Origin: a virus | Length of the DNA stretch: 64,000 nt | IMG/VR virus record: IMGVR_UViG_3300045125_000071 | Coordinates: 124,001-188,000 of that record | Reading direction: 5' to 3' (one strand) | In this document: positions 1,645-28,698 of the stretch, one piece after another | Layout of the letters: each line of letters opens with the position of its first letter | Position numbering within the stretch: the stretch's first letter is position 1 | The notes under the pieces: generated by a model | Told to the model about the DNA's origin: nothing | The model's input: the letters and a program-made list of their open reading frames with translations, nothing else | Database searches by the model: none | Translations under genes and position numbers: made by a program

Positions 1645-2317
1645 TTATAGTAAAGTGTTCCCCTTTCCTCTTTTAAAGATTGTCCAACAACATCTTTCCA
1701 TTTTGTAACAGCAATTTGATTTGCAGGACCTCTTGTAACACCGCTTTCCCATTTTGTTACTTGTGGGTATCCAGTACCACCGCCTTGTGTTGGTGTTGTT
1801 GATGCAGCAGCTGCGGCATCCTGTTCTTTCATTTCTTTTTTATTATTATAATAATTCAATATAAAATCATTTCCATACCCAGTACTAGATATTTCTTCTA
1901 TTGAAACTTCAATTGGTTCAATATTATTTTTTTCTCTTTATAATCTTCTAATTTTTCGGCACCAAAACCCTCAAAATATACTATAGGTTTACCATTAACC
2001 ATTTTAGATGCAATAATTTTACTTATTTTAGACACCCCCCAACCCTCTTCCTGGGATTCTCTATATGCAGCATCTATTGGTTTTTCATTTTTTTCCACCT
2101 TACCACCAGGTAAACCAATTTTCTTATTTTCAGATTTTTCATAGGGTCTAGTTGTTGCAGCAATTTTATTGTTTGGTAATTTAATAACCACAAACGCAGC
2201 AAACGCATTATCCTCCTCTTCTTCAGATAATTCTCTATAACCTTTACCTTCTTCTATAATTAATTTGTCAATTAATCTGCGTATTTGTTCTTCCTTGACA
2301 ACAACTATTTTATTCAT
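1645..2317 (-). CDS. Nudix hydrolase with N-terminal targeting-like module (frameshifted)
   Basis: The start MNKIVVVKEEQIRRLIDKLI is preferred over two upstream ATGs because it carries the N-terminal module shared by other genes in this window and overlaps the stop of the preceding gene. A Nudix box follows: GLPGGKVEKNE then REsqEEgWG, close to the GX5EX7REUXEEXGU pattern, although the last part is degenerate. Nudix enzymes hydrolyse nucleoside diphosphates linked to another group. After about residue 138 the frame shifts in an A run near 1918. Reading on gives a tail with Ala-rich and TPTQGGGTGYP sequence and a WKDVVGQSLKEERG end at about 1645. The join is inferred. Confidence 0.65.
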
Positions 2318-12536: not shown

Positions 12537-13286
12537 TCTAATTCGAAAGTGTCTTTAAATTCTTTACCAGATTCTTTATAACTTTTATTTGTTTCATCTT
12601 TATGTTTTCGGTGAATTGCCAATTCCAGCATAACTCATTTTTTACATCAAAACCATAAAAAGTTAACACTTGTTTTTGAACTTTTACAACATCGGAACCC
12701 CGCCAATTTTGTCCAACAGCGATAATACCACAAGAAATATCTTTAATAAGATTAGATTCACCCAAAGTAGAATGTCTATTTTCCAACCAGGTTAATCTTT
12801 CAATCAAATTTTGATAATGTGAATTCATTTGACCCCATCTAATGCTACCAAAAAACAATACACAATCAGATTCGAATAATTCTTTACTTATTTTCCATAA
12901 CTCATCATCGGGATTATTGATGTTTCTCCAACATCTATGGTTCCCAGTTGGATTTTGTCTTTATCTTTTAATGCCGCTTTTTTAATCCACATTCATTACC
13001 TTTCATATGCGAAACATTTGCTTCACATGCATAAATTTTCAATTCTGGTACTTCGATTAACTTACATTTTGATTTTCCTAAGTAAGATTGTATTGCTTCT
13101 GCTAATATTGTTGATTTCGGTTTCTCTTTCAATTCCTTTGCTGCCCATCCGCCGCGATTTGAAGTTGTAAGAAACAATATTTTTCTTTCCTTCTAGAAAC
13201 TTAACTGTCTTAATTAATTTTTTATAATGAGGATTGTCTTTTTTAAGATTTGGGTCAATCTCCTCTAATATTTTGATTAGTTCCAT
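12533..13286 (-). CDS. NAD(P)H:FMN reductase / flavodoxin-like protein (frameshifted)
   Basis: Several pieces join: MELIKILEEIDPNLKKDNPH, FLTTSNRGGWAAKELKEKPK (the position of the FMN phosphate loop), CEANVSHMKGNECGLKKA, VLFFGSIRWGQMNSHYQNLI and SCGIIAVGQNWRGSD. The order matches multimeric flavodoxin/NADPH-dependent FMN reductases. Shifts lie near 13180, 12960 and 12590. Such proteins move electrons through FMN; here the partner is unknown. Confidence 0.6.
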
Positions 13287-13615
13287 TATTTTTTCTTTTC
13301 CTCAGTTTGAGTAGTATAAATAGCTTTTTTATGTTCTCTAATCTTATTTTTCAATTGGTTAATCAATGTATGCGCTGATTGTAAATTTGTTGAAATTTTA
13401 GAAACCCTACCATTTGATATGGTTTTTAGACCATCAGGTATACAATCTTCCAATTTTCTTAATTCTTTGAGTGTTTCATTTAATGCGTTTTCCAATTCTT
13501 CGATTTTATACTGAACTCTTGAAAATTCATCGCGTTTCACCTTTGAAGTTTCTTCGGATATGACCTTTAAAAACGCATTTTTTATAATTTCTTCAGATAA
13601 TAGATTCTTGTCCAT
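13286..13615 (-). CDS. Coiled-coil protein with targeting-like N-terminus
   Basis: 109 residues. The first 22 (MDKNLLSEEIIKNAFLKVIS and E-E) vaguely match the N-terminal module seen on other genes here, with a possible I-S-E cleavage point. Residues 30-100 are charged heptads (KIEELENALNETLKELRKLE), so a coiled coil. It ends at the start of the flavodoxin-like gene. Function unknown. Confidence 0.6.
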   Translation of the reverse strand: MDKNLLSEEIIKNAFLKVISEETSKVKRDEFSRVQYKIEELENALNETLKELRKLEDCIPDGLKTISNGRVSKISTNLQSAHTLINQLKNKIREHKKAIYTTQTEEKKK

Positions 13616-19729: not shown

Positions 19730-20424
19730 TATTTGTTAAAGTGTTTTATTTCATAACCTTTTGCTGTTTTTTGATTACCAGATAAAACATGTTTTACATT
19801 ACTTTCTGAACATTTTAAAAATTCCGCAACTTCTTTAGTCGTTTCAAATTTAGCAATAATTATATTATTTTTTAAAATAATTTTTTCACCGTGGTAATTC
19901 CAAACTTTATCTCTAATTATTTTTTTCCTTTTTCACTTAATTTTTGTTTTGTTTTTTCTGTATGTTTTTTCCCATAAAAAGGATTTTTATTACCAGAATA
20001 TCTACCCTTCATTGTTTCAGATTGTCTTTTTTTTGTTCTTTAGTTAATACTCTTTTATTATTTTTTCCATAACTATTACCTATGTTTGTCAGTCTATATG
20101 CTAATCTAGCTTCTTCATATGCTGATGATGATATGATTCTTTTTGTTTTATTTGACATAGATAACATTTTATGAAAAGCTAATGCCATTTGTCTATCTTT
20201 ATATATTATCCATAATAACCAATGCGCAATAAAATGTTCTCTAGCTGTTAATAATACAATGTTTTCATTATTTTTTGGTCTATTACTATTACCTTTTCCA
20301 CCTTTACATTTTGGTACTATATGATGTCCTTCAAAATATTCACCATTCTTTTTTCTTTTATTCTATCGTTTTTCATTAATAACCTACTAAACATTAAATC
20401 ATCATATATTTTTTTATAATTCAT
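19711..20424 (-). pseudogene. HNH homing endonuclease with NUMOD domains (multiply frameshifted)
   Basis: Pieces in different frames give MNYKKIYDDLMFSRLLMKND, EGHHIVPKCKGGKGNSNRPK (HHIVPK, HNH core), NIVLLTAREHFIAHWLLW, then GNKNPFYGKKHTEKTKQKLS (NUMOD3-like) and KFETTKEVAEFLKCSESNVK (NUMOD1-like helix-turn-helix). This is a typical free-standing homing endonuclease. At least three shifts; whether it is dead or mis-sequenced cannot be told. Confidence 0.65.
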
Positions 20425-20446
20425 AATAATCTTTTAATTAATATGG

Positions 20447-21298
20447 TTATTTTGTTAATAGTGAATAAAATAATTTGAATTCTTTCATTCGTTGTTCTAA
20501 ACCTATTTGCCCACCATTTACACATCTTGTAACAATTTTTACTGTTTGTTCGGATGCGTCAACACACTTATTTAAACAGTTTTTACTAAAAAACCATGCA
20601 GCAGATAATAATGGATATTTAGTCGCAACTAAATCTGGGTTGTTTACTAAATTCACATTTATGGCATCACCAAAAGCGACGTAATTATTTTTACCTGTTA
20701 ATTGTATATATCCCCTACCTCTGAATTTAAAACCCTCCTTAGTTGGTTCTGGACCATTACCCATTCTATCACCGTAAACCCTCGATGCTATTTTTTCTGG
20801 TTTCTTTTCATATGATTCAGCAAGATTACCTGGAAAATATCTTGGAAACACTCTCAGAAGCCCTTGTCTGGAATAATTAAGATTTTCCTGTACAATCCTA
20901 AAGTTACCAGATTCATGTCCACATTGAGCCAGAAAATGGGCTAATTTTATTGGTGTATCTATTTTAAACTTTTCTGTTGTTTCAGGTATTTGGGCAAGAA
21001 CATTATCTGGTATATAGCCCCTTAAATTTTGTAAATTTAGGGGACCAATAGTTTCAGTAATTTCTGTTGCTATTTCATCGGTTTCTTGTTTTTTAATTGG
21101 TTTGCTGTCAAATTTTGTTGTAAATAATTTACCCCAAGTGTTTTGTCCAACAACACCATCCGCAATCAAACCATTTCTAGCTTGCCATTTTTTTACCGCA
21201 GCTTGCGTACCAGCACCAAAAACACCATCAGCACTTAACCCTAATTTTTCTTGTAATTGTTTTACCTGTTCGCCTCTAGACCCTATTTTTAATAACAT
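20447..21298 (-). CDS. Endolysin: peptidoglycan-binding domain + GH19 muramidase/chitinase-like domain
   Basis: 283 residues, intact. Residues 3-60 are a PG_binding_1 domain (IGSRGEQVKQLQEKLGLSAD, a second repeat-like GLIADGVVGQNTWGKL). From about residue 95 a GH19 lysozyme-like domain follows: LAHFLAQCGHESGNFRIVQE with the catalytic Glu in GHESG, FRGRGYIQLTGKNNY, and PLLSAAWFFSKN. It cleaves cell-wall glycan at the end of infection. It lacks the N-terminal module of the second muralytic enzyme at 25.4-26.3 kb, so this one is the better lysis candidate. Confidence 0.88.
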   Translation of the reverse strand: MLLKIGSRGEQVKQLQEKLGLSADGVFGAGTQAAVKKWQARNGLIADGVVGQNTWGKLFTTKFDSKPIKKQETDEIATEITETIGPLNLQNLRGYIPDNVLAQIPETTEKFKIDTPIKLAHFLAQCGHESGNFRIVQENLNYSRQGLLRVFPRYFPGNLAESYEKKPEKIASRVYGDRMGNGPEPTKEGFKFRGRGYIQLTGKNNYVAFGDAINVNLVNNPDLVATKYPLLSAAWFFSKNCLNKCVDASEQTVKIVTRCVNGGQIGLEQRMKEFKLFYSLLTK

Positions 21299-21387
21299 AA
21301 TTTTATAATTTTATAATTTTATTCAATTATATATAAATATTTCATTTTGAAATTATTATGTATTTATAATAATAACAAAATATTAGT

Positions 21388-22575
21388 ATGAGTAAGACTC
21401 TTTTTATATTAAAAGAAAACCAAATAAAAAAACTTATTGGTAATATATTATTGGAACAACAAACTATTACTAATAACTCCACAACAGTTAATATATTTCC
21501 AAAAACACCTTTAGGTAATTTATTTAGCTATGGTGAATTTCAATCTGAAAAGGTCAAAGATTATATTTTAACGAATTTGAAACCAAGAATAGAGGATTTT
21601 ATAGCAAAAAGTGATTCGGCTCAATTTACCATCAAAATATCTGCTGGGGAATCTCTTGTCACAAATCCAAAAGGTTTCGAGACAAGAGGAAGTTTAGCAC
21701 TAGCCAGAGCTAATTCAGTAAATCAATATTTTCAAGAAGCGTTTGGTGATTTAATAAAAAATGGTGTTATAAAAATAGAATCACCAAATAATGTAAGTAA
21801 AGTTCAAATCGGTACAACACCTTATGAAAAAGGTGACCAAAACAACCCAAATTTAGTGGCTAAATATAAAGCCGAGCAGTTTGTAAATTTTGAAATTGTC
21901 GGTTCAGGAACAAAAACTGAAGTTAAAACAACAACATTATGTGAAACAGAACCATTACGGAGTAGCGGTGGTTATATTATGGCAGATAATGATTATACTA
22001 ATATAACAAATTGGAATTTAGGTAAAGGTAGTGGGGATGTATATATTATGTACGATGTTTACCAACAATTAGATATTTTATATTTTGAATATAATGGTCA
22101 AATATATGGGGACACATTATTTCATGGAAGTACTGGGGATACACAAAGAATATTTTTAGGCACAAGTTTAAGAGCGAAATACGGTAACGGTACTCTACCT
22201 AATCAAATGGCGAACAACACATTTATACCATTAAATCAAAGTGATAGTAGAATATTTAAAAGTTTAGATGATATGGGTGAATGGGGTTTGGTTAAAAGTT
22301 TTCAAAACACATTTGGTCCAAATTCTTCATTACATAACCCACAATACATGGCAGCATTCCAGGAATTTGATGAGACTAAAAACAAGAGTAGGTTAATTAA
22401 AAATTTAGGCGTTGATTTCCCTTGGGGTTATTTGGATAGTAAAATAGGTAAAAAAGAAGTAACCATTGGTCCGTTTAAAAAAGTTGATGGGATTGACACT
22501 ATTAAGGTTATTAATGTTGCCCCAGTCGGAACTACTGGGTGGGTAATATCGTTGGTCTGTACAAATAATCCTTAA
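21388..22575 (+). CDS. OmpA-like protein with N-terminal targeting-like module
   Basis: 395 residues. Residues 1-26 (FILKENQIKKLIGNILLEQQ) carry the shared N-terminal module. Residues 85-170 resemble an OmpA-like peptidoglycan-binding domain (FTIKISAGESLVTNPKGFET, RGSLALARANSVNQYF). The C-terminal half is unknown and ends with a Gly/Trp-rich stretch. A TATTTATA motif lies 20 bases before the ATG. It could be a virion protein that meets the host wall. Confidence 0.7.
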   Translation: MSKTLFILKENQIKKLIGNILLEQQTITNNSTTVNIFPKTPLGNLFSYGEFQSEKVKDYILTNLKPRIEDFIAKSDSAQFTIKISAGESLVTNPKGFETRGSLALARANSVNQYFQEAFGDLIKNGVIKIESPNNVSKVQIGTTPYEKGDQNNPNLVAKYKAEQFVNFEIVGSGTKTEVKTTTLCETEPLRSSGGYIMADNDYTNITNWNLGKGSGDVYIMYDVYQQLDILYFEYNGQIYGDTLFHGSTGDTQRIFLGTSLRAKYGNGTLPNQMANNTFIPLNQSDSRIFKSLDDMGEWGLVKSFQNTFGPNSSLHNPQYMAAFQEFDETKNKSRLIKNLGVDFPWGYLDSKIGKKEVTIGPFKKVDGIDTIKVINVAPVGTTGWVISLVCTNNP

Positions 22576-22860
22576 TATATTTGGGTATTTGATTTTTATA
22601 TCATTTTCATCCAATTTGATATACGTTTTTGTTTTGAAATCATACAAAGATAATTGTCTAACAAAGACAGTGTCTTTTATATTACTCCAACTGATAAATG
22701 CTATATGTTTGTTTGTCAATTTTTCTACATGCGAAATAATAAAACTATTTAACTTTTTATCAATCTTCATTGTTTGCCACAAACTATCGGAATTTATACC
22801 ATTTTGGGCATAAGATGATACCGAATAAAGACAAAATACAAGAATTGTTAGGTATCTCAT
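22405..22860 (-). CDS. Small secreted protein, signal peptide
   Basis: Start MRYLTILVFCLYSVSSYAQN gives a clear signal peptide with an SYA-Q cleavage site; the mature part begins NGINSDSLWQTMKIDKKLN. After about residue 100 the frame runs antisense into the neighbouring gene. A one-base shift near 22580 would stop it at about 22572, which I think is the real end. Function unknown; exported to the periplasm. Confidence 0.55.
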   Translation of the reverse strand: MRYLTILVFCLYSVSSYAQNGINSDSLWQTMKIDKKLNSFIISHVEKLTNKHIAFISWSNIKDTVFVRQLSLYDFKTKTYIKLDENDIKIKYPNILRIICTDQRYYPPSSSDWGNINNLNSVNPINFFKRTNGYFFFTYFTIQITPREINA

Positions 22861-23032
22861 AAAATTTGTTTTAACAAACGTATAACAATTATACACATTT
22901 TCCAAATTTTTTTTATATTGTATTTATAAATGACCTTGTGCTTGATTTTCAAGTGTTTATATATAACATTTGAGTTGGATTTAACACCCAACAAATTGAA
23001 AATCAAATAATTAGAGAATAAAAAATAAGGAA

Positions 23033-24028
23033 ATGAAAAAAAAAGTATCAATTAACAGTGGCGTTGCTGTGCCACAATCCTTCATTACAAAGAACAAACA
23101 GAGGGTAAAACAGTATGCAGACACCGTTTATCTTGAAAACGGGGACGAGTTCGAATTAGAACTCTTTAATCCAACACAAAATAAGGTTTTGGCTAAAATT
23201 GAACTGAACGGAACAAGTATCGGTAGTGGTGTTGTTCTCCGACCAGGGGAAAGGGTATTCTTGGAAAGGTATCTGAATGAACCTAAAAAATTCAAATACG
23301 ATACCTATTTTGTGGATGATAATAATCCAAGCGTTGATGCTGCAATCAAACAAAATGGGGATGTTATGGTATCGTTCTATGATGAAGAGAAACCTGACTA
23401 TTTGTATAATGGTACTTGTTGATATCAGGTAATTATTTGTCATCAGGCACAACATACCACAAATTACCCAACATTTACAACTTTTAATGATAACTTCACA
23501 TACACAACAAATGGGTTGAATATGTATAGAGATACATTATCATTCAGTTCTTCAGAGGTAAAAAGCGCATCAATAAGTTCACGAAGTTTTGCCAAGACAA
23601 AAGAAACTGGCAGAATTGAGAAGGGTGGTGACTCATCACAAAAATTAACATATGATTCAACAAGATTTAAAACCACAAAAATCGCAACAAACTGGTGGAA
23701 AATTTTGCCAATGTCAGAAAAGGTAAAAACGATTGATGAGGTTCAGACATTCTATTGTTCAAGTTGTGGAACAAAAAGAAAAAAGGATAATTATAAATTT
23801 TGTCCAAACTGCGGAACAAAATTTGTTGAAGAAAAAGAACCTAAAATCATATTCACCGAAGATGTTAGATATATTCATTATATTAATGGTGAATTTAGAA
23901 CTTTAATGATGTCATCGTATAATGATACCTTAGATAAATTTTTGGAAAGACATAAACACAAATCCAAAATTATCATAAAAAGAGATAGTCTGACAGAAAA
24001 TAGTTTGAGGGCGATTTTAATAGATTAA
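23033..24028 (+). CDS. Probable virion structural protein with zinc ribbon (interrupted)
   Basis: MKKKVSINSGVAVPQSFITK is followed by LFNPTQNKVLAKIELNGTSI and LRPGERVFLERYLNEPKKF, a domain I have seen in structural-type proteins of large phages. The same frame continues after a TGA at 23420 and ends with a zinc ribbon (FYCSSCGTKRKKDNYKFCPN then CGTKF). Two compensating indels are more likely than a real stop, since a neighbouring frame is open across the gap. An AAGGA ribosome-binding site precedes the ATG. Confidence 0.6.
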
Positions 24029-24373
24029 AATAAAATAACACAAGGTCACAAAAAAGGGGGGTTTAAACCCCTTTTTTATTTCATGTATTTCTTTTTCTTT
24101 TGATATCATTTTATCGACCGCATTTGTAAATTTAAAACATTTGTCTGTAATGTCATTTGCTTCGTGGTCGAACATTGTTAATTTTACACTATTATGTTTA
24201 ACTAACATATCTGGATGATGGTTTTGTTTTTTTGCAATATTGGCAACTTTGTTTACAAAATCGATAACATCGTCATATGATTCAAATTTATATGTTTTAA
24301 CCAATTTTCCACCAGTTTCTTTCCAATCAGATTTTATTTTATCAAGTTGTTTTTCGGTTATAATAATTTTCAT
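24017..24373 (-). CDS. Pterin-4a-carbinolamine dehydratase-like protein
   Basis: MKIIITEKQLDKIKSDWKET starts with the first half of the shared N-terminal module. The rest matches the DCoH/PCD fold: KLVKTYKFESYDDVIDFVNK, then VANIAKKQNHHPDML, with the family's active-site HHPD, and a second strand VKLTMFDHEANDITDKC. PCD enzymes dehydrate pterin carbinolamine. The role in a phage is unclear. The final 14 residues run through the terminator and are probably not real. Confidence 0.75.
   Translation of the reverse strand: MKIIITEKQLDKIKSDWKETGGKLVKTYKFESYDDVIDFVNKVANIAKKQNHHPDMLVKHNSVKLTMFDHEANDITDKCFKFTNAVDKMISKEKEIHEIKKGFKPPFFVTLCYFILIY
24051..24078. terminator. Bidirectional hairpin terminator
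   Basis: AAAAAGGGG, a GTTTAAAC loop region and CCCTTTTTT. It lies between convergent genes and cuts the listed tail of the pterin-dehydratase-like gene, whose real stop is probably just before it. Confidence 0.75.
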
Positions 24374-24376
24374 ATA

Positions 24377-24986
24377 TTATGATTTATATAATAATCTCAA
24401 TAATTTTTTAGTTAAATCTGGATTGTTTCTATTTGCGTGAATATATTTGTATAACGGTATTCTGAATGATTCGATATTTTTACCAGGGAAATTACTTTTA
24501 AAATTTTCTTTATCTGCCAATAAATCTGGCGATTCAATATTCGGTGTTTTTTTTACTTCTTCCTTTTTTTGTTGTGGTGGTGCTGGGTATGTTTTATTTA
24601 TTTGTTGCATTGTTTTGCTTGGTTCATTTGGTGCGTTTGCGCTGGTTGTTCATTTAATTGTGGTCTATCAACATTCAACATTTCAGCATCATAATCCCTT
24701 CTTTTCAAACCACCAGCCTCAACTTCATCAACTAACATATTTGTAATCGCATCCAGAAAAGCATACATTTTTTCTCTATCTTCATAATATGCTGGATGTA
24801 ATTTAATATTGTTTATAACAATTTTAGCCATTTTATATGGTGATGGTTCCATAGATTGCCCAGGCATAAGTTTACCACCTTCATAAGAATAATCTTCTTT
24901 ACCAAGCTCATCCATTTGCGCATATTCTTCTTGCAATCTTTTTTGTAATTTCTTTAATTGCAATTCCGTCAACTTAATTTTTTCAT
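24377..24986 (-). CDS. Hypothetical protein with N-terminal targeting-like module (frameshifted)
   Basis: With one A restored in the run at about 24980 the start reads MKK-IKLTELQLKKLQKRLQ-EE, matching the shared module. The body (MDELGKEDYSYEGGKLMPGQ, then KMAKIVINNIKLHPAYYEDR) continues through a second shift near 24605 into a Pro/Lys-rich linker (TYPAPPQQKKEEVKKTPNIE) and a short helical end. Function unknown. Confidence 0.55.
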
Positions 24987-24987
24987 A

Positions 24988-25101
24988 TTATTTGATGTTA
25001 ATATTTTTTAAAACAGAGATATTATCGTTGATTCTTTTTGTTGTTTTTTTACCTGACTTGATACTTTTTGTTGGTCTATGTTTTTTTTGTTTTTTTGCCA
25101 T
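24988..25101 (-). CDS. Small very basic protein, 37 aa
   Basis: MAKKQKKHRPTKSIKSGKKT and a short tail: more than a third Lys/Arg. It ends two bases before the next start. It could bind nucleic acid or be packaged with DNA; this is inference only. TATTTATA lies on its strand 41 bases upstream. Confidence 0.55.
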   Translation of the reverse strand: MAKKQKKHRPTKSIKSGKKTTKRINDNISVLKNINIK

Positions 25102-25155
25102 TTTAGTATTATTGTTTCAAACGATATCTCTTTATTTTATATATAAATATCAATT

Positions 25156-25355
25156 TTAATTTTTATCCATATCTTTATTATCATCTGATTTTCCAGAGAA
25201 TGTCTTATATTGTCTTAATCTCTTAGCTTTAAAAGCGGGAGAATCACTGCTCTCATAATCTGCTAATGCTTTTTTCGCTGCGCGTTTTTAAGTTCTGGAG
25301 ATAATTCAACGATTAGATTTTTTAATTGTGTTTCTGTTAAAATAATTTTTCTCAT
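25156..25355 (-). CDS. Small basic protein with N-terminal targeting-like module (frameshifted)
   Basis: MRKIILTETQLKNLIVELSP is a close match to the shared module. After one missing A in the run near 25287 the frame continues KKRAAKKALADYESSDSPAF and ends KDMDKN at 25156. About 66 residues, basic. With the module removed only about 45 residues remain. Confidence 0.6.
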
Positions 25356-25387
25356 ATATCAATAAATATGTTCAATAATATCTATTA

Positions 25388-26279
25388 TTAACTAAAAAAT
25401 AAATCAAGTTCTTCCATTCTTCTTTTTGTAAACCCCGCATGAATTTACCGTTATCATAAACATATTGCAACCAGTATGTTTTGATTGCTTTTGGGTCTTC
25501 ACTATTAATTGCGTTTTTCAATCCATCGCCAAGACTCCCAACATTGTATAGAAAAATTGCTAAAGCATCGAACTCATTTTGACTAAGAGGAACTGAAATA
25601 TCTTTTTTAATTTCTGGCAAAACTTTTTCATTCATATGGCTCATTAGATATTTTGCAGCCATTGCTTTAGATATGTGGAATTTGGTTCCTTTTTGATATT
25701 TCTTTAATTCTGGATGGTTTTTAACCAATGTACCATAGCCAATGGTCAATGCTCCGCCACACGGTTTTGATGTTGGTGCGTCAGGACAATGGTCATCATA
25801 AACCTGGCTTCTGAAATCTTCCGTTTTTTGTGATTGCAATATTTGAATCGCAAGTCTTGAATATGTTTTAGCTGCTGGTTTACCAACAGGTAACGCATAT
25901 ACATGAAATATTCTGTTTTTTCCAAACTTGCCAATTTTTATCAATTTTGCTTTCGGATTCTTTGTTTTTACCATATCACAAGAAGGACATTTTCCATTAT
26001 CAATCTCTTCAGAAAAAGGAATCAACAAAATGACAGGCTTTTCATTTTCAGCCGTCTCAAATTTCAAAATAGATTTTCCCATATCTGATAATGTTATTTG
26101 GATGGATTTTAAAACAATTTTTTTCCTTTTGTAAGTGTTTTCACTTTTTTATAAAAATTATTTAATGTCACATCCTGTATGGTATAATTTTGTGGTTTTA
26201 TAGATAATTCGTTTTCATTTATTAATGTTTTTATAACAATCGATAATTGAGATTCTGTCAGTTTAATAAAATTTGGCAT
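25388..26279 (-). CDS. GH24 (T4-type) lysozyme with N-terminal targeting-like module (frameshifted)
   Basis: Begins MPNFIKLTESQLSIVIKTLI-NE, the shared module. A shift in an A run near 26120 joins it to the long frame. A middle domain with GKCPSCDMVK is followed by the lysozyme domain: KTEDFRSQVYDDHCPDAP, GALTIGYGTLV, then VPLSQNEFDALAIFLYNVGS. This Glu...Asp...TIGYG layout is that of T4 lysozyme and gp5. The true end is probably RRMEELDLFFS at 25388. A lysozyme with the module could be packed in the virion to breach the wall at entry. Confidence 0.75.
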
Positions 26280-26326
26280 TATGTAACTATTTTCTGATAG
26301 ATAAATATTTATATAATAAAATAATC

Positions 26327-27076
26327 ATGAAGAATAACATTATATTAACGGAATCACAATTGAAAAGAATAATTGAGAAAGTAATTGCTGAGCAAGATAA
26401 ATCATACACTGTTGGCGATTTAAAAAATATGGGCTTGCTTGGTGGTAAACCACCAACACAACAATGGACACCGCCAGCACGTGGTGAAAAATATGGTGAA
26501 AGTAGAGGTCCTGGTAGAATTGCAAAAGAAGGAAATATAAGACCTTCCATAACATTGCCGAGTGGTTTATTCAAAAATGGAATTGATAGAATTGATACAA
26601 GTTCTGTTGAATTTAAAAATGGTATAAACGCAATTGCTGATGCGGTCAAAAAAAGGGACAAAATATAACGGTATTCGTTGAGGGTGGAGCATCGGCTGTC
26701 GGTCAAGTAGAAGGATATGATAATAATGCATTAGCAAGTAGAAGAGCGCGCAATTTTATTGCACAAGCACAAAAAATGTTCCCATCTATAAATTTCAAAA
26801 CATCAACAAAAGTGGGTGTATCGACACGAAAAAATTCACCAGAAGCGGAAAGTGAGCAATATGTTAAATTGATGTTTCCTGGCGAAATGTCACCAGAAAA
26901 AAATATCAAGCGGTTGATAATACACAACTGGTAATGAATTATCGTAAACCAAAGAAACCAGTAGAAACCAAAAAATAGATTATAAAACATATTATAAGGT
27001 ATGTTATTGGATACCAGAAGAGTATTATAGCCAAGTAATGTCTTTAATTCAAAAAGTTGGGGGTCTAGAAGTATAA
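26327..27076 (+). CDS. OmpA-like protein with N-terminal targeting-like module (frameshifted)
   Basis: MKNNIILTESQLKRIIEKVI-AEQ is the best example of the shared module. A Pro/Gly-rich linker follows. After a shift near 26650 the chain reads NITVFVEGGASAVGQVEGYD and NNALASRRARNFIAQA, an OmpA-like domain with the usual LSxxRA-type helix. Further shifts near 26910 and 26975 give an end at about 27076. A TATTTATA motif is 14 bases before the ATG. Confidence 0.65.
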
Positions 27077-27086
27077 TAAAATAATC

Positions 27087-27161
27087 ATGAAGAATTACAT
27101 TATATTGACAGAATCTCAATTAATACAAGTTATAAAGACTATTATAGCTGAAGGCAAATAA
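27087..27161 (+). CDS. Stand-alone copy of the N-terminal module, 24 aa
   Basis: MKNYIILTESQLIQVIKTII-AEGK then stop. The first 12 residues and about 20 bases of upstream sequence nearly repeat those of the OmpA-like gene at 26327. The frame ends just after the putative I-A-E cleavage point. It is either a micro-gene made only of the module or the head of a gene lost by recombination. Confidence 0.55.
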   Translation: MKNYIILTESQLIQVIKTIIAEGK

Positions 27162-27193
27162 TTATTTCCATTCTCTTTTAATTAAATGGATAT

Positions 27194-27631
27194 ATGAGAA
27201 TAAAGAAGGGAAAACACGGGAACATTCATTTACCAAGAATCGTATCACCAAAGAAGGAATTGAAACGTCAAGCAACGTTCACCGATTCATGCAGATATGA
27301 TATTGGTGATGACCAAAGCGATATCAATAAGTTATATGGAATCGGGTTTTTACCATGGCACAGAAAGAATTCAATAAGATTTGGTTGGAGATATGTGAAG
27401 GAAACCGATAAGATTGAAATCCTGGCGTATTGGTATATAAACAGCACCAGATACAATGAAAGCATATGTTTTGTGGATATCAATCAGAAATGTGCATACA
27501 GCATCAAATGGATTGGCAATGGTTATGAATTGAAGGTGGATGACATATCAAAGACAATCAATATGGGTAGCCATAATTTTGGTTTATATGTTATATCCAT
27601 ACTTCGGCGGGAATATGAAAGCCCCACATGA
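27194..27631 (+). CDS. Conserved hypothetical protein (Bacteroidota/phage type)
   Basis: 145 residues, intact. CRYDIGDDQSDINKLYGIGF followed by HRKNSIRFGWRYVKETDKIE and ILAYWYINSTR is a conserved pattern I have seen in unnamed proteins of Bacteroidota and their phages. Beta-rich. Function unknown. Confidence 0.7.
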   Translation: MRIKKGKHGNIHLPRIVSPKKELKRQATFTDSCRYDIGDDQSDINKLYGIGFLPWHRKNSIRFGWRYVKETDKIEILAYWYINSTRYNESICFVDINQKCAYSIKWIGNGYELKVDDISKTINMGSHNFGLYVISILRREYESPT

Positions 27632-27853
27632 TATTGTTATTGAAATTTCATCCCACTAATCCTTAAGTTTTATATTAGTTATGAATATTAAATAAAATAC
27701 CCCAAAAATTTTTTTCACTTTGGGCATTATTTTCTAAGTTTTCAGTTTTTTACCAAAAATTTTTTCACATTTACCAATAAAATCCAATTTCCCAGAAAAA
27801 ATTTGGAATATATAGTATATTTGTGTAAATTTCATTTATTAAAAAGTTTAAAC

Positions 27854-28406
27854 ATGGAAAAAACAAAAATCGTTAAAAATAACGAAATGACCGCAGAAAT
27901 TCTCAAGGAAATGTCAGAAGAAGGGTTTTGGATTTTATTCGAAAGACTTTCATTGAAAAACAATTATCCTGAAATATTTCAGCATATTAATTGTACAACC
28001 TGGTGAAGAATCTTTTCTTAGAGAAAGAATTGAAGATGAAATTGAATATTTACAAAATTACCTTAATGATAAAGAAAAAAATTGGAGTAAACACAAACGT
28101 ACTTACCAATTATTAGATAAAGAACATATGAGGTTTGACCAAAGTGGCTACGAGTCAGTAACGGGTGAGGTAACAATACACAATACGGGAATATTAAATA
28201 AATTCGCTGATTTGGGAATATATGATTATACAAGTTTCCTATTCTTGGATTTCTATAAAGGCAGTGGAACCATATATTTGAAATATTGGGACAATGACGA
28301 GTATCTTGAAGAAGATGATTTAGGTGGTCTTACTACATCTGAAATAATATATAGGATTTTTGAATTGACGATTTTTACAAATAAAGTAAAAGAAAGAAGA
28401 TGGTGA
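27854..28406 (+). CDS. Hypothetical protein (frameshifted)
   Basis: MEKTKIVKNNEMTAEILKEM leads, through a one-base shift near 27990, to LIVQPGEESFLRERIEDEIE and the frame ending KVKERRW. About 184 residues. A TATATTTG promoter box lies at 27816 with a short leader. Last gene before the G-rich boundary. Function unknown. Confidence 0.55.
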
Positions 28407-28698
28407 AATGACAAAAAATTTTTTTTCAATTTTACTATATTTTTCCAAAAAAAATTTTTGTTACGGGATTGACCCCTGTTTAGACCCCCTAAAAATGCCT
28501 ATATAGAGGGGGGATACCATGGGGGAGGGGGTAGGTAGGGTGCATATAGGTAGGTAGGGGGTAAACTAGACAAAATCCAGCCGCCCCCCGTACCTGCTGA
28601 ACTTCAGCATGGCTTTAACAAATGATTAACCTATTGTGTGTTCGTATATGGATATGTTTCGTATATTTGCTTATTCAATCACCTAAACCTTTTACGCC
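28407..28698. other. Non-coding boundary with G-rich tandem tract
   Basis: No gene seen. 28495-28560 has six or more G runs of three to six, with a tandem TAGGTAGGG unit (28530-28558), followed at 28563-28577 by one arm of the 16-nt inverted repeat. A promoter box TATATTTGC (28662-28670) precedes the next gene. Base composition changes here from very AT-rich to mixed. Confidence 0.7.
28563..28577. repeat. Half-copy of the conserved inverted repeat
   Basis: AAACTAGACAAAATC, the right arm only. The left arm is missing; the G-rich tract stands in its place. Confidence 0.7.

Follow-up and report, generated by a model that had tools for sequence, protein, structure and literature searches.

The capsid-targeting sequences (CTSs) of bacteriophage T4 are short N-terminal stretches found on the unrelated proteins IPI, IPII, IPIII and Alt, an ADP-ribosyltransferase among them. 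They end in L/I-X-E and are cut by gp21, which cleaves after this motif; T4 propeptides are given as 7 to 65 residues long in the accessible part of PMC9026906. In SPN3US, a phiKZ-like phage, the head or ejection proteins gp45, gp47, gp53 and gp54 have N-terminal propeptides that are cleaved behind a short motif whose last residue is E (PMC5694885, accessible part). As far as these portions of the two papers go, both kinds of propeptide are established. The ArdC-N and ART domains of polyvalent proteins, for their part, have been linked to delivery together with DNA by phages and plasmids (PMC5512222, again in its accessible part).

The tag described here was found in a window of 64,000 bases, the whole stretch of DNA that was analysed, which covers positions 124001-188000 of IMG/VR virus record IMGVR_UViG_3300045125_000071 (251,358 bases; G000). 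Like a T4 CTS it is short and N-terminal, stands on unrelated proteins and ends in L/I-X-E, and the phage itself resembles T4 in having a head with gp23 and gp21 homologues. However, the tag is often longer (16-26 against 7-19 residues), and its carriers are more numerous and more varied per genome. The T4 CTS sequences themselves also look different. Going by the accessible text on phiKZ-like propeptides, these share with the tag an N-terminal position and a putative cut after a motif ending in E, but they have A/S-X-E and several exceed 100 residues, whereas the tag has [IL]xE and occurs with a T4-type capsid. Two tagged proteins match domains of polyvalent proteins, ArdC-N (over the cut-off) and ART-PolyVal (just under it), although polyvalent proteins, as the accessible text has them, are large multidomain chains, while tagged ones are single, small and joined by a common tag. 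In the accessible portions of the literature on phage capsid-targeting sequences, PMC9026906, PMC3012670 and PMC5694885 included, no account of the tag was found and the sequence IITESQ was without a match; the accessible part of PMC7824862 gave no mention of capsid targeting or of a prohead protease.

The reading favoured here, with a probability of about 0.6, is that the tag is a capsid-targeting propeptide, and that a 24-codon micro-gene in the window (Table 1) is a duplicated tag, most likely a remnant without cargo. At the N-terminus of late-expressed proteins, some 16-26 residues would bring their carriers into the prohead core and would be removed by a gp21-type protease after [IL]-x-E; the cargo would be packaged in the head and ejected along with the DNA. 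The leader and tag of the neighbouring gene 26327 would have been duplicated behind that gene to form the micro-gene, whose cargo would since have been lost and which may be read through from the preceding gene. If this is true, the tag would serve as a new targeting peptide with which proteins could be loaded into phage heads, and the proteins injected into hosts by giant T4-like phages could be listed from sequence alone; many of these are now called ‘hypothetical’. The micro-gene would then offer a naturally occurring tag without cargo for testing, and would record how tagged genes duplicate.

Table 1. Features of the window (window positions; a slash marks a predicted cut)
Feature	Position	Strand	Remarks
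NUDIX hydrolase	1898..2317	-	tag MNKIVVVKEEQIRRLIDKLIIE/E
109-aa protein	13286..13615	-	weaker tag MDKNLLSEEIIKNAFLKVISE/E; TATTTAT box
395-aa protein	21388..22575	+	tag MSKTLFILKENQIKKLIGNILLE/Q; TATTTAT box
Pterin-4a-carbinolamine dehydratase	24017..24373	-	tag-like start without [IL]xE
Tagged gene	24598..24984	-	tag KLTELQLKKLQKRL; frame broken just past ATG (A run); score 22.4 at 24978
Tagged gene	25263..25355	-	MRKIILTETQLKNLIVELSPEL...; frame broken in A run
Phage lysozyme domain PF00959	25372..26082	-	Pfam
Tag, probably front of lysozyme gene	26109..26279	-	MPNFIKLTESQLSIVIKTLINE/N; frameshift between
Box and leader of OmpA-like tagged gene	26306..26326	+	TATTTAT 26306-26312; leader TATAATAAAATAATC 26312-26326
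OmpA-like gene	26327..26977	+	N-terminal tag MKNNIILTESQLKRIIEKVIAE/Q; at least 2 frameshifts interrupt; end uncertain
Open stretch	26975..27076	+	IDYKTYYKVCYWIPEEYYSQVMSLIQKVGGLEV, then stop; perhaps end of OmpA-like gene after homopolymer slip
Duplicated leader	27072..27086	+	TATAATAAAATAATC; directly 5' of micro-gene
24-codon micro-gene	27087..27161	+	MKNYIILTESQLIQVIKTIIAEGK; tag only; predicted end IIAE/GK; without TATTTAT box; profile score 26.4
Independent untagged gene	27194..27631	+	relatives begin at same ATG

A preliminary description of this DNA had reported ATAATAAAATAATCATGAAG at both 26313 and 27073, together with a 24-codon frame that encodes the tag and nothing more, and both observations hold. 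Of the 51 bases at 27073-27123, 46 are the same in the 26313 copy; 300 first-order Markov sequences derived from region 20001-28450 averaged 29.0 matches and never exceeded 32. The frame reads MKNYIILTESQLIQVIKTIIAEGK before its stop. The words ‘tag’ and ‘module’ used there are fair, as the sequence is found on other genes too. From 26313/27073 on, the copies are identical at 50 of 60 bases. The 15-base leader TATAATAAAATAATC is exact at 26312 and 27072, and a scan of the whole 251,358-base record found it free of mismatches nowhere else. The left edge of identity is abrupt at 27072, the 26312 copy being preceded by AATATTTA, which completes a TATTTAT box, and the 27072 copy by CTAGAAG. This edge cuts through the box: the 26327 gene has AATATTTATATAATAAAATAATC, the micro-gene merely CTAGAAGTATAATAAAATAATC.

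The earlier suggestion, that tag and upstream DNA move as a unit, is borne out as a local duplication of leader and tag for the 26313/27073 pair, but not as a genome-wide spread to unrelated genes. A second neighbouring tagged pair, G006:317767 and G006:316657, shares ~24 identical bases that include the TATTTAT box. Among 32 tag starts from three records, which may include frame-internal starts, leader similarity is 0.529 within records and 0.541 between them, and the corresponding values for the core DNA are 0.628 and 0.613. With no within-record excess, genome-wide shuffling of leader and tag is not supported. Duplication is therefore local, and unrelated genes would have acquired the tag either long ago or by another route. 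At window 26279-26327, divergent tagged genes lie on either side of one symmetric ATAAATATTTAT stretch common to both.

That the micro-gene might be a truncated gene had also been proposed; as the front of the next gene, this fails. Relatives of 27194 in two IMG/VR contigs (L016 and L017; 49% identity) align from residue 1, have their own ATG and no tag, and in both contigs the start overlaps an unrelated upstream gene; further, more distant relatives are found in named phages. As 27194 thus has its own start in its relatives, the micro-gene is not its broken front, an origin that the out-of-frame alternatives likewise rule out. Nor does the micro-gene frame stay open into a normal gene: 32 bases separate its stop from the start at 27194, and of the other two frames one stops after 9 codons and the other extends, out of frame, through the gene that follows.

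Although the micro-gene, a local duplicate, has neither a box nor, apparently, a cargo, its tag seems to have been under selection. Of 66 bases compared with the 26327 tag, 18 differ, distributed as 5, 3 and 10 over the three codon positions, and in a neutral simulation (20,000 trials) a fraction of only 0.0003 kept the tag score, an [ILV]xE end and an open frame. Together these results suggest that the micro-gene tag has been under selection for much of its history, a period that may include time with a cargo. Codons 1-6 match one of the 26327 and 26279 tags at 17 of 18 bases and codons 7-12 match the other, again at 17 of 18, a pattern that is suggestive only of a mosaic of the two. A sigma-70 scan near the micro-gene gave nothing above weak consensus matches, and a tRNA scan of the 64-kb window found none.

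A remnant of a former tagged gene is the most likely identity of the micro-gene, because there is no room for a cargo and because tag-only genes are rare, although the codon pattern and the low neutral retention, in pointing to selection on the tag, weaken this view. It is rather unlikely, but conceivable, that the micro-gene works as it stands, as a late peptide that would enter the prohead core, be cut there, and either modulate the assembly of the core or give rise to a small internal peptide. The pattern of changes in its tag would fit such a function, as would a frame that is intact amid a frameshift-rich record. A later genome scan (14 stretches) provided one convincing parallel for a free tag peptide, L229:313-441, a tagged mini-gene of 42 aa that has a TATTTAT box of its own and is followed by a separate gene; moreover, a relative of the OmpA-like gene, in L031, has a second module near its C-terminus, so that extra modules near this gene recur. 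Against a working gene stand the missing box, the mere GK that would be left after the last cut, and the size distribution of tagged frames: in the loci then examined, 178 (115 distinct) were longer than 50 aa and 3 were shorter, these being the micro-gene itself, the frameshifted 25355 frame and one frame internal to a longer one. Although assigned to a Wolfebacteria MAG, the L229 contig looks phage-like and is probably a misbinned phage. Near-identical 43-aa tag-like frames in Belliella buryatensis (L223:3246 and L225:55) have identical upstream DNA, and each overlaps a similar next gene; they show no [IL]xE ending and, like a 35-aa L234 frame from the genome scan, were left out of the mini-gene count. 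A broader and quite tentative proposal is that in T4-like giant phages a common propeptide family loads at least a dozen enzymes into each head (among them lysozyme, NUDIX, CCA-enzyme, ART, ArdC-N and amidase), and that tag-only genes work in this loading, as free peptides competing for or building the core or as empty slots for recombining cargo.

The tag is an N-terminal stretch common to otherwise unrelated proteins. Searching IMG/VR with degenerate DNA that encodes M-K-x-I-I-x-T-E-x-[QE]-L retrieved 119 stretches, 80 of which were listed. Among the matches listed, the tag is N-terminal on at least 34 different protein bodies (34 clusters from 101 of 121 matches; one cluster, L051, is probably a chance hit and was kept in the counts). 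The other 20 matches span 12-18 residues, mostly MKFIILTEKEL...; they lie at the C-terminal end of longer frames, with 65-178 open codons upstream, and were removed before families were counted. As I-I-x-T-E was required by the search pattern, the conservation of this core cannot count as independent evidence. A 12-column profile was made from 33 representatives of the clusters together with 7 own tags, which as seeds match by construction. With it, tagged starts scoring at least 12 numbered 9 in the phage's own record, 8 in G002, 17 in G006 and 1 each in G004 and the first 150 kb of Flavobacterium phage immuto; the shuffled counterparts gave 1, 0, 0, 0 and 0, respectively. Met lies within seven residues at 93 of the 95 distinct strong sites in the loci then examined. 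One exception is the frameshifted start at window 24978; the other, the sole truly internal module among the 95, is the second module of the L031 protein (L031:840-1697; 285 aa), which matches PF00691 OmpA and also has an N-terminal tag. The L219 OmpA-like relative has the N-terminal module only. Five tag stretches gave only weak matches in PHROGs (E 0.015 or worse), no Pfam match covers the tag except in the dehydratase, and the predicted structure of one tagged family has a mean pLDDT of 52.7.

The end of the tag has the form of a gp21-type L/I-X-E motif and is the predicted cut site. [IL]-x-E is present within residues 13-34 of 27 of the 34 representatives, against a mean of 12.5 and a maximum of 21 in 2000 shuffles; as a background, 31% of 917 other ORFs have it, as do 40% of 174 other ORFs with a TATTTAT box. 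Across the same 34 representatives [ILVMF]E, [ILVMF]xK and [ILVMF]xD are not enriched, and [ILVMF]xxE is enriched weakly (21 of 34 against a mean of 17.0, p 0.09); in the small sample of ten own tags, xK and xxE also lie above shuffles. As I-T-E at tag residue 8 fits the motif too, two cuts may be possible. The phage's own record encodes a gp21-type protease at 82295-82651 (E 3.2e-18) and a gp23-type capsid protein at 79190-80659 (E 8.3e-65), with YLINE/A at residue 60 in the N-terminal part of the latter. LINE/A recurs in 5 of the 6 closest capsid copies, own included, and the sixth has LLTE/N. The gp23 and gp21-type pair occurs in the own record and in 8 of 21 others, and all 9 records with gp23 above the cut-off have the protease; two of these, G008 and G010, owe their retrieval to chance matches at C-termini and are not counted as tag carriers. 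In 13 of the 20 records reached via true tags, three of them >200 kb, neither protein is above the cut-off; these records may be fragments.

These observations also bear on whether the tag could be an N-terminal address elsewhere than the head, to the membrane, the replication compartment or the tail, or else a translation-start element. Packaging is deduced from sequence, and 7 of the 34 families have no [IL]xE in the stretch examined, which leaves such an address some room. It is nonetheless unlikely, given the [IL]xE excess, the co-occurrence with the protease and a conservation that persists at the protein level despite codon change; the last of these also speaks against an element that acts purely as DNA or RNA.

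TATTTAT lies at most 45 bases upstream of 19 of the 34 tagged representatives, compared with 181 of 932 other ORFs and a genomic rate of ~2%; other genes behind such a box in the own record are an apparent tail sheath gene and a core-like gene, both named by eye. The box resembles the T4 late promoter, TATAAATA, read from the opposite strand, and may itself be a late promoter. Tagged cargo above the Pfam cut-off includes NUDIX, lysozyme and pterin dehydratase in the own record, CCA-enzyme and HD in G002, and further OmpA, ArdC-N and Tae4 amidase. ArdC-N (anti-restriction) and Tae4 (amidase effector) are found on the tagged proteins L104:1-986 and L060:2298-2978, respectively, and the ART-PolyVal match reaches 30.9 bits against a cut-off of 31.2. 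The dehydratase match starts at residue 8, so its tag-like start may be native. By eye, the body of G000:73311 is like that of an L030 protein but has a different N-terminal helix, likewise ending in LKE.

Frame shifts in A/T runs are seen at window ~24978, ~25290, ~26100, ~26655, ~26905 and ~27590, and these gene breaks look like long-read error or recent decay of the record. That the OmpA-like gene ends at 27076 is unsupported, since the similarity of the 26975-27076 tail to the L219 tail is not beyond chance (p 0.24). For the OmpA-like piece, tblastn against phages gave chance matches only and a first IMG/VR search was empty; the endolysin has distant relatives, and searches found no sister locus and no close sister of the phage. 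Although several A/T-run frameshifts lie nearby and leader-tag copies 760 bases apart could perhaps mislead assembly, it is improbable that the micro-gene stems from an error in the record, an indel or collapsed repeat that deleted a cargo gene between 27158 and 27194, as no single-base shift opens a plausible gene and the 27194 start is backed by relatives. The G+C content is ~0.30 up to window ~28000 and 0.36-0.45 from there through to the window end.
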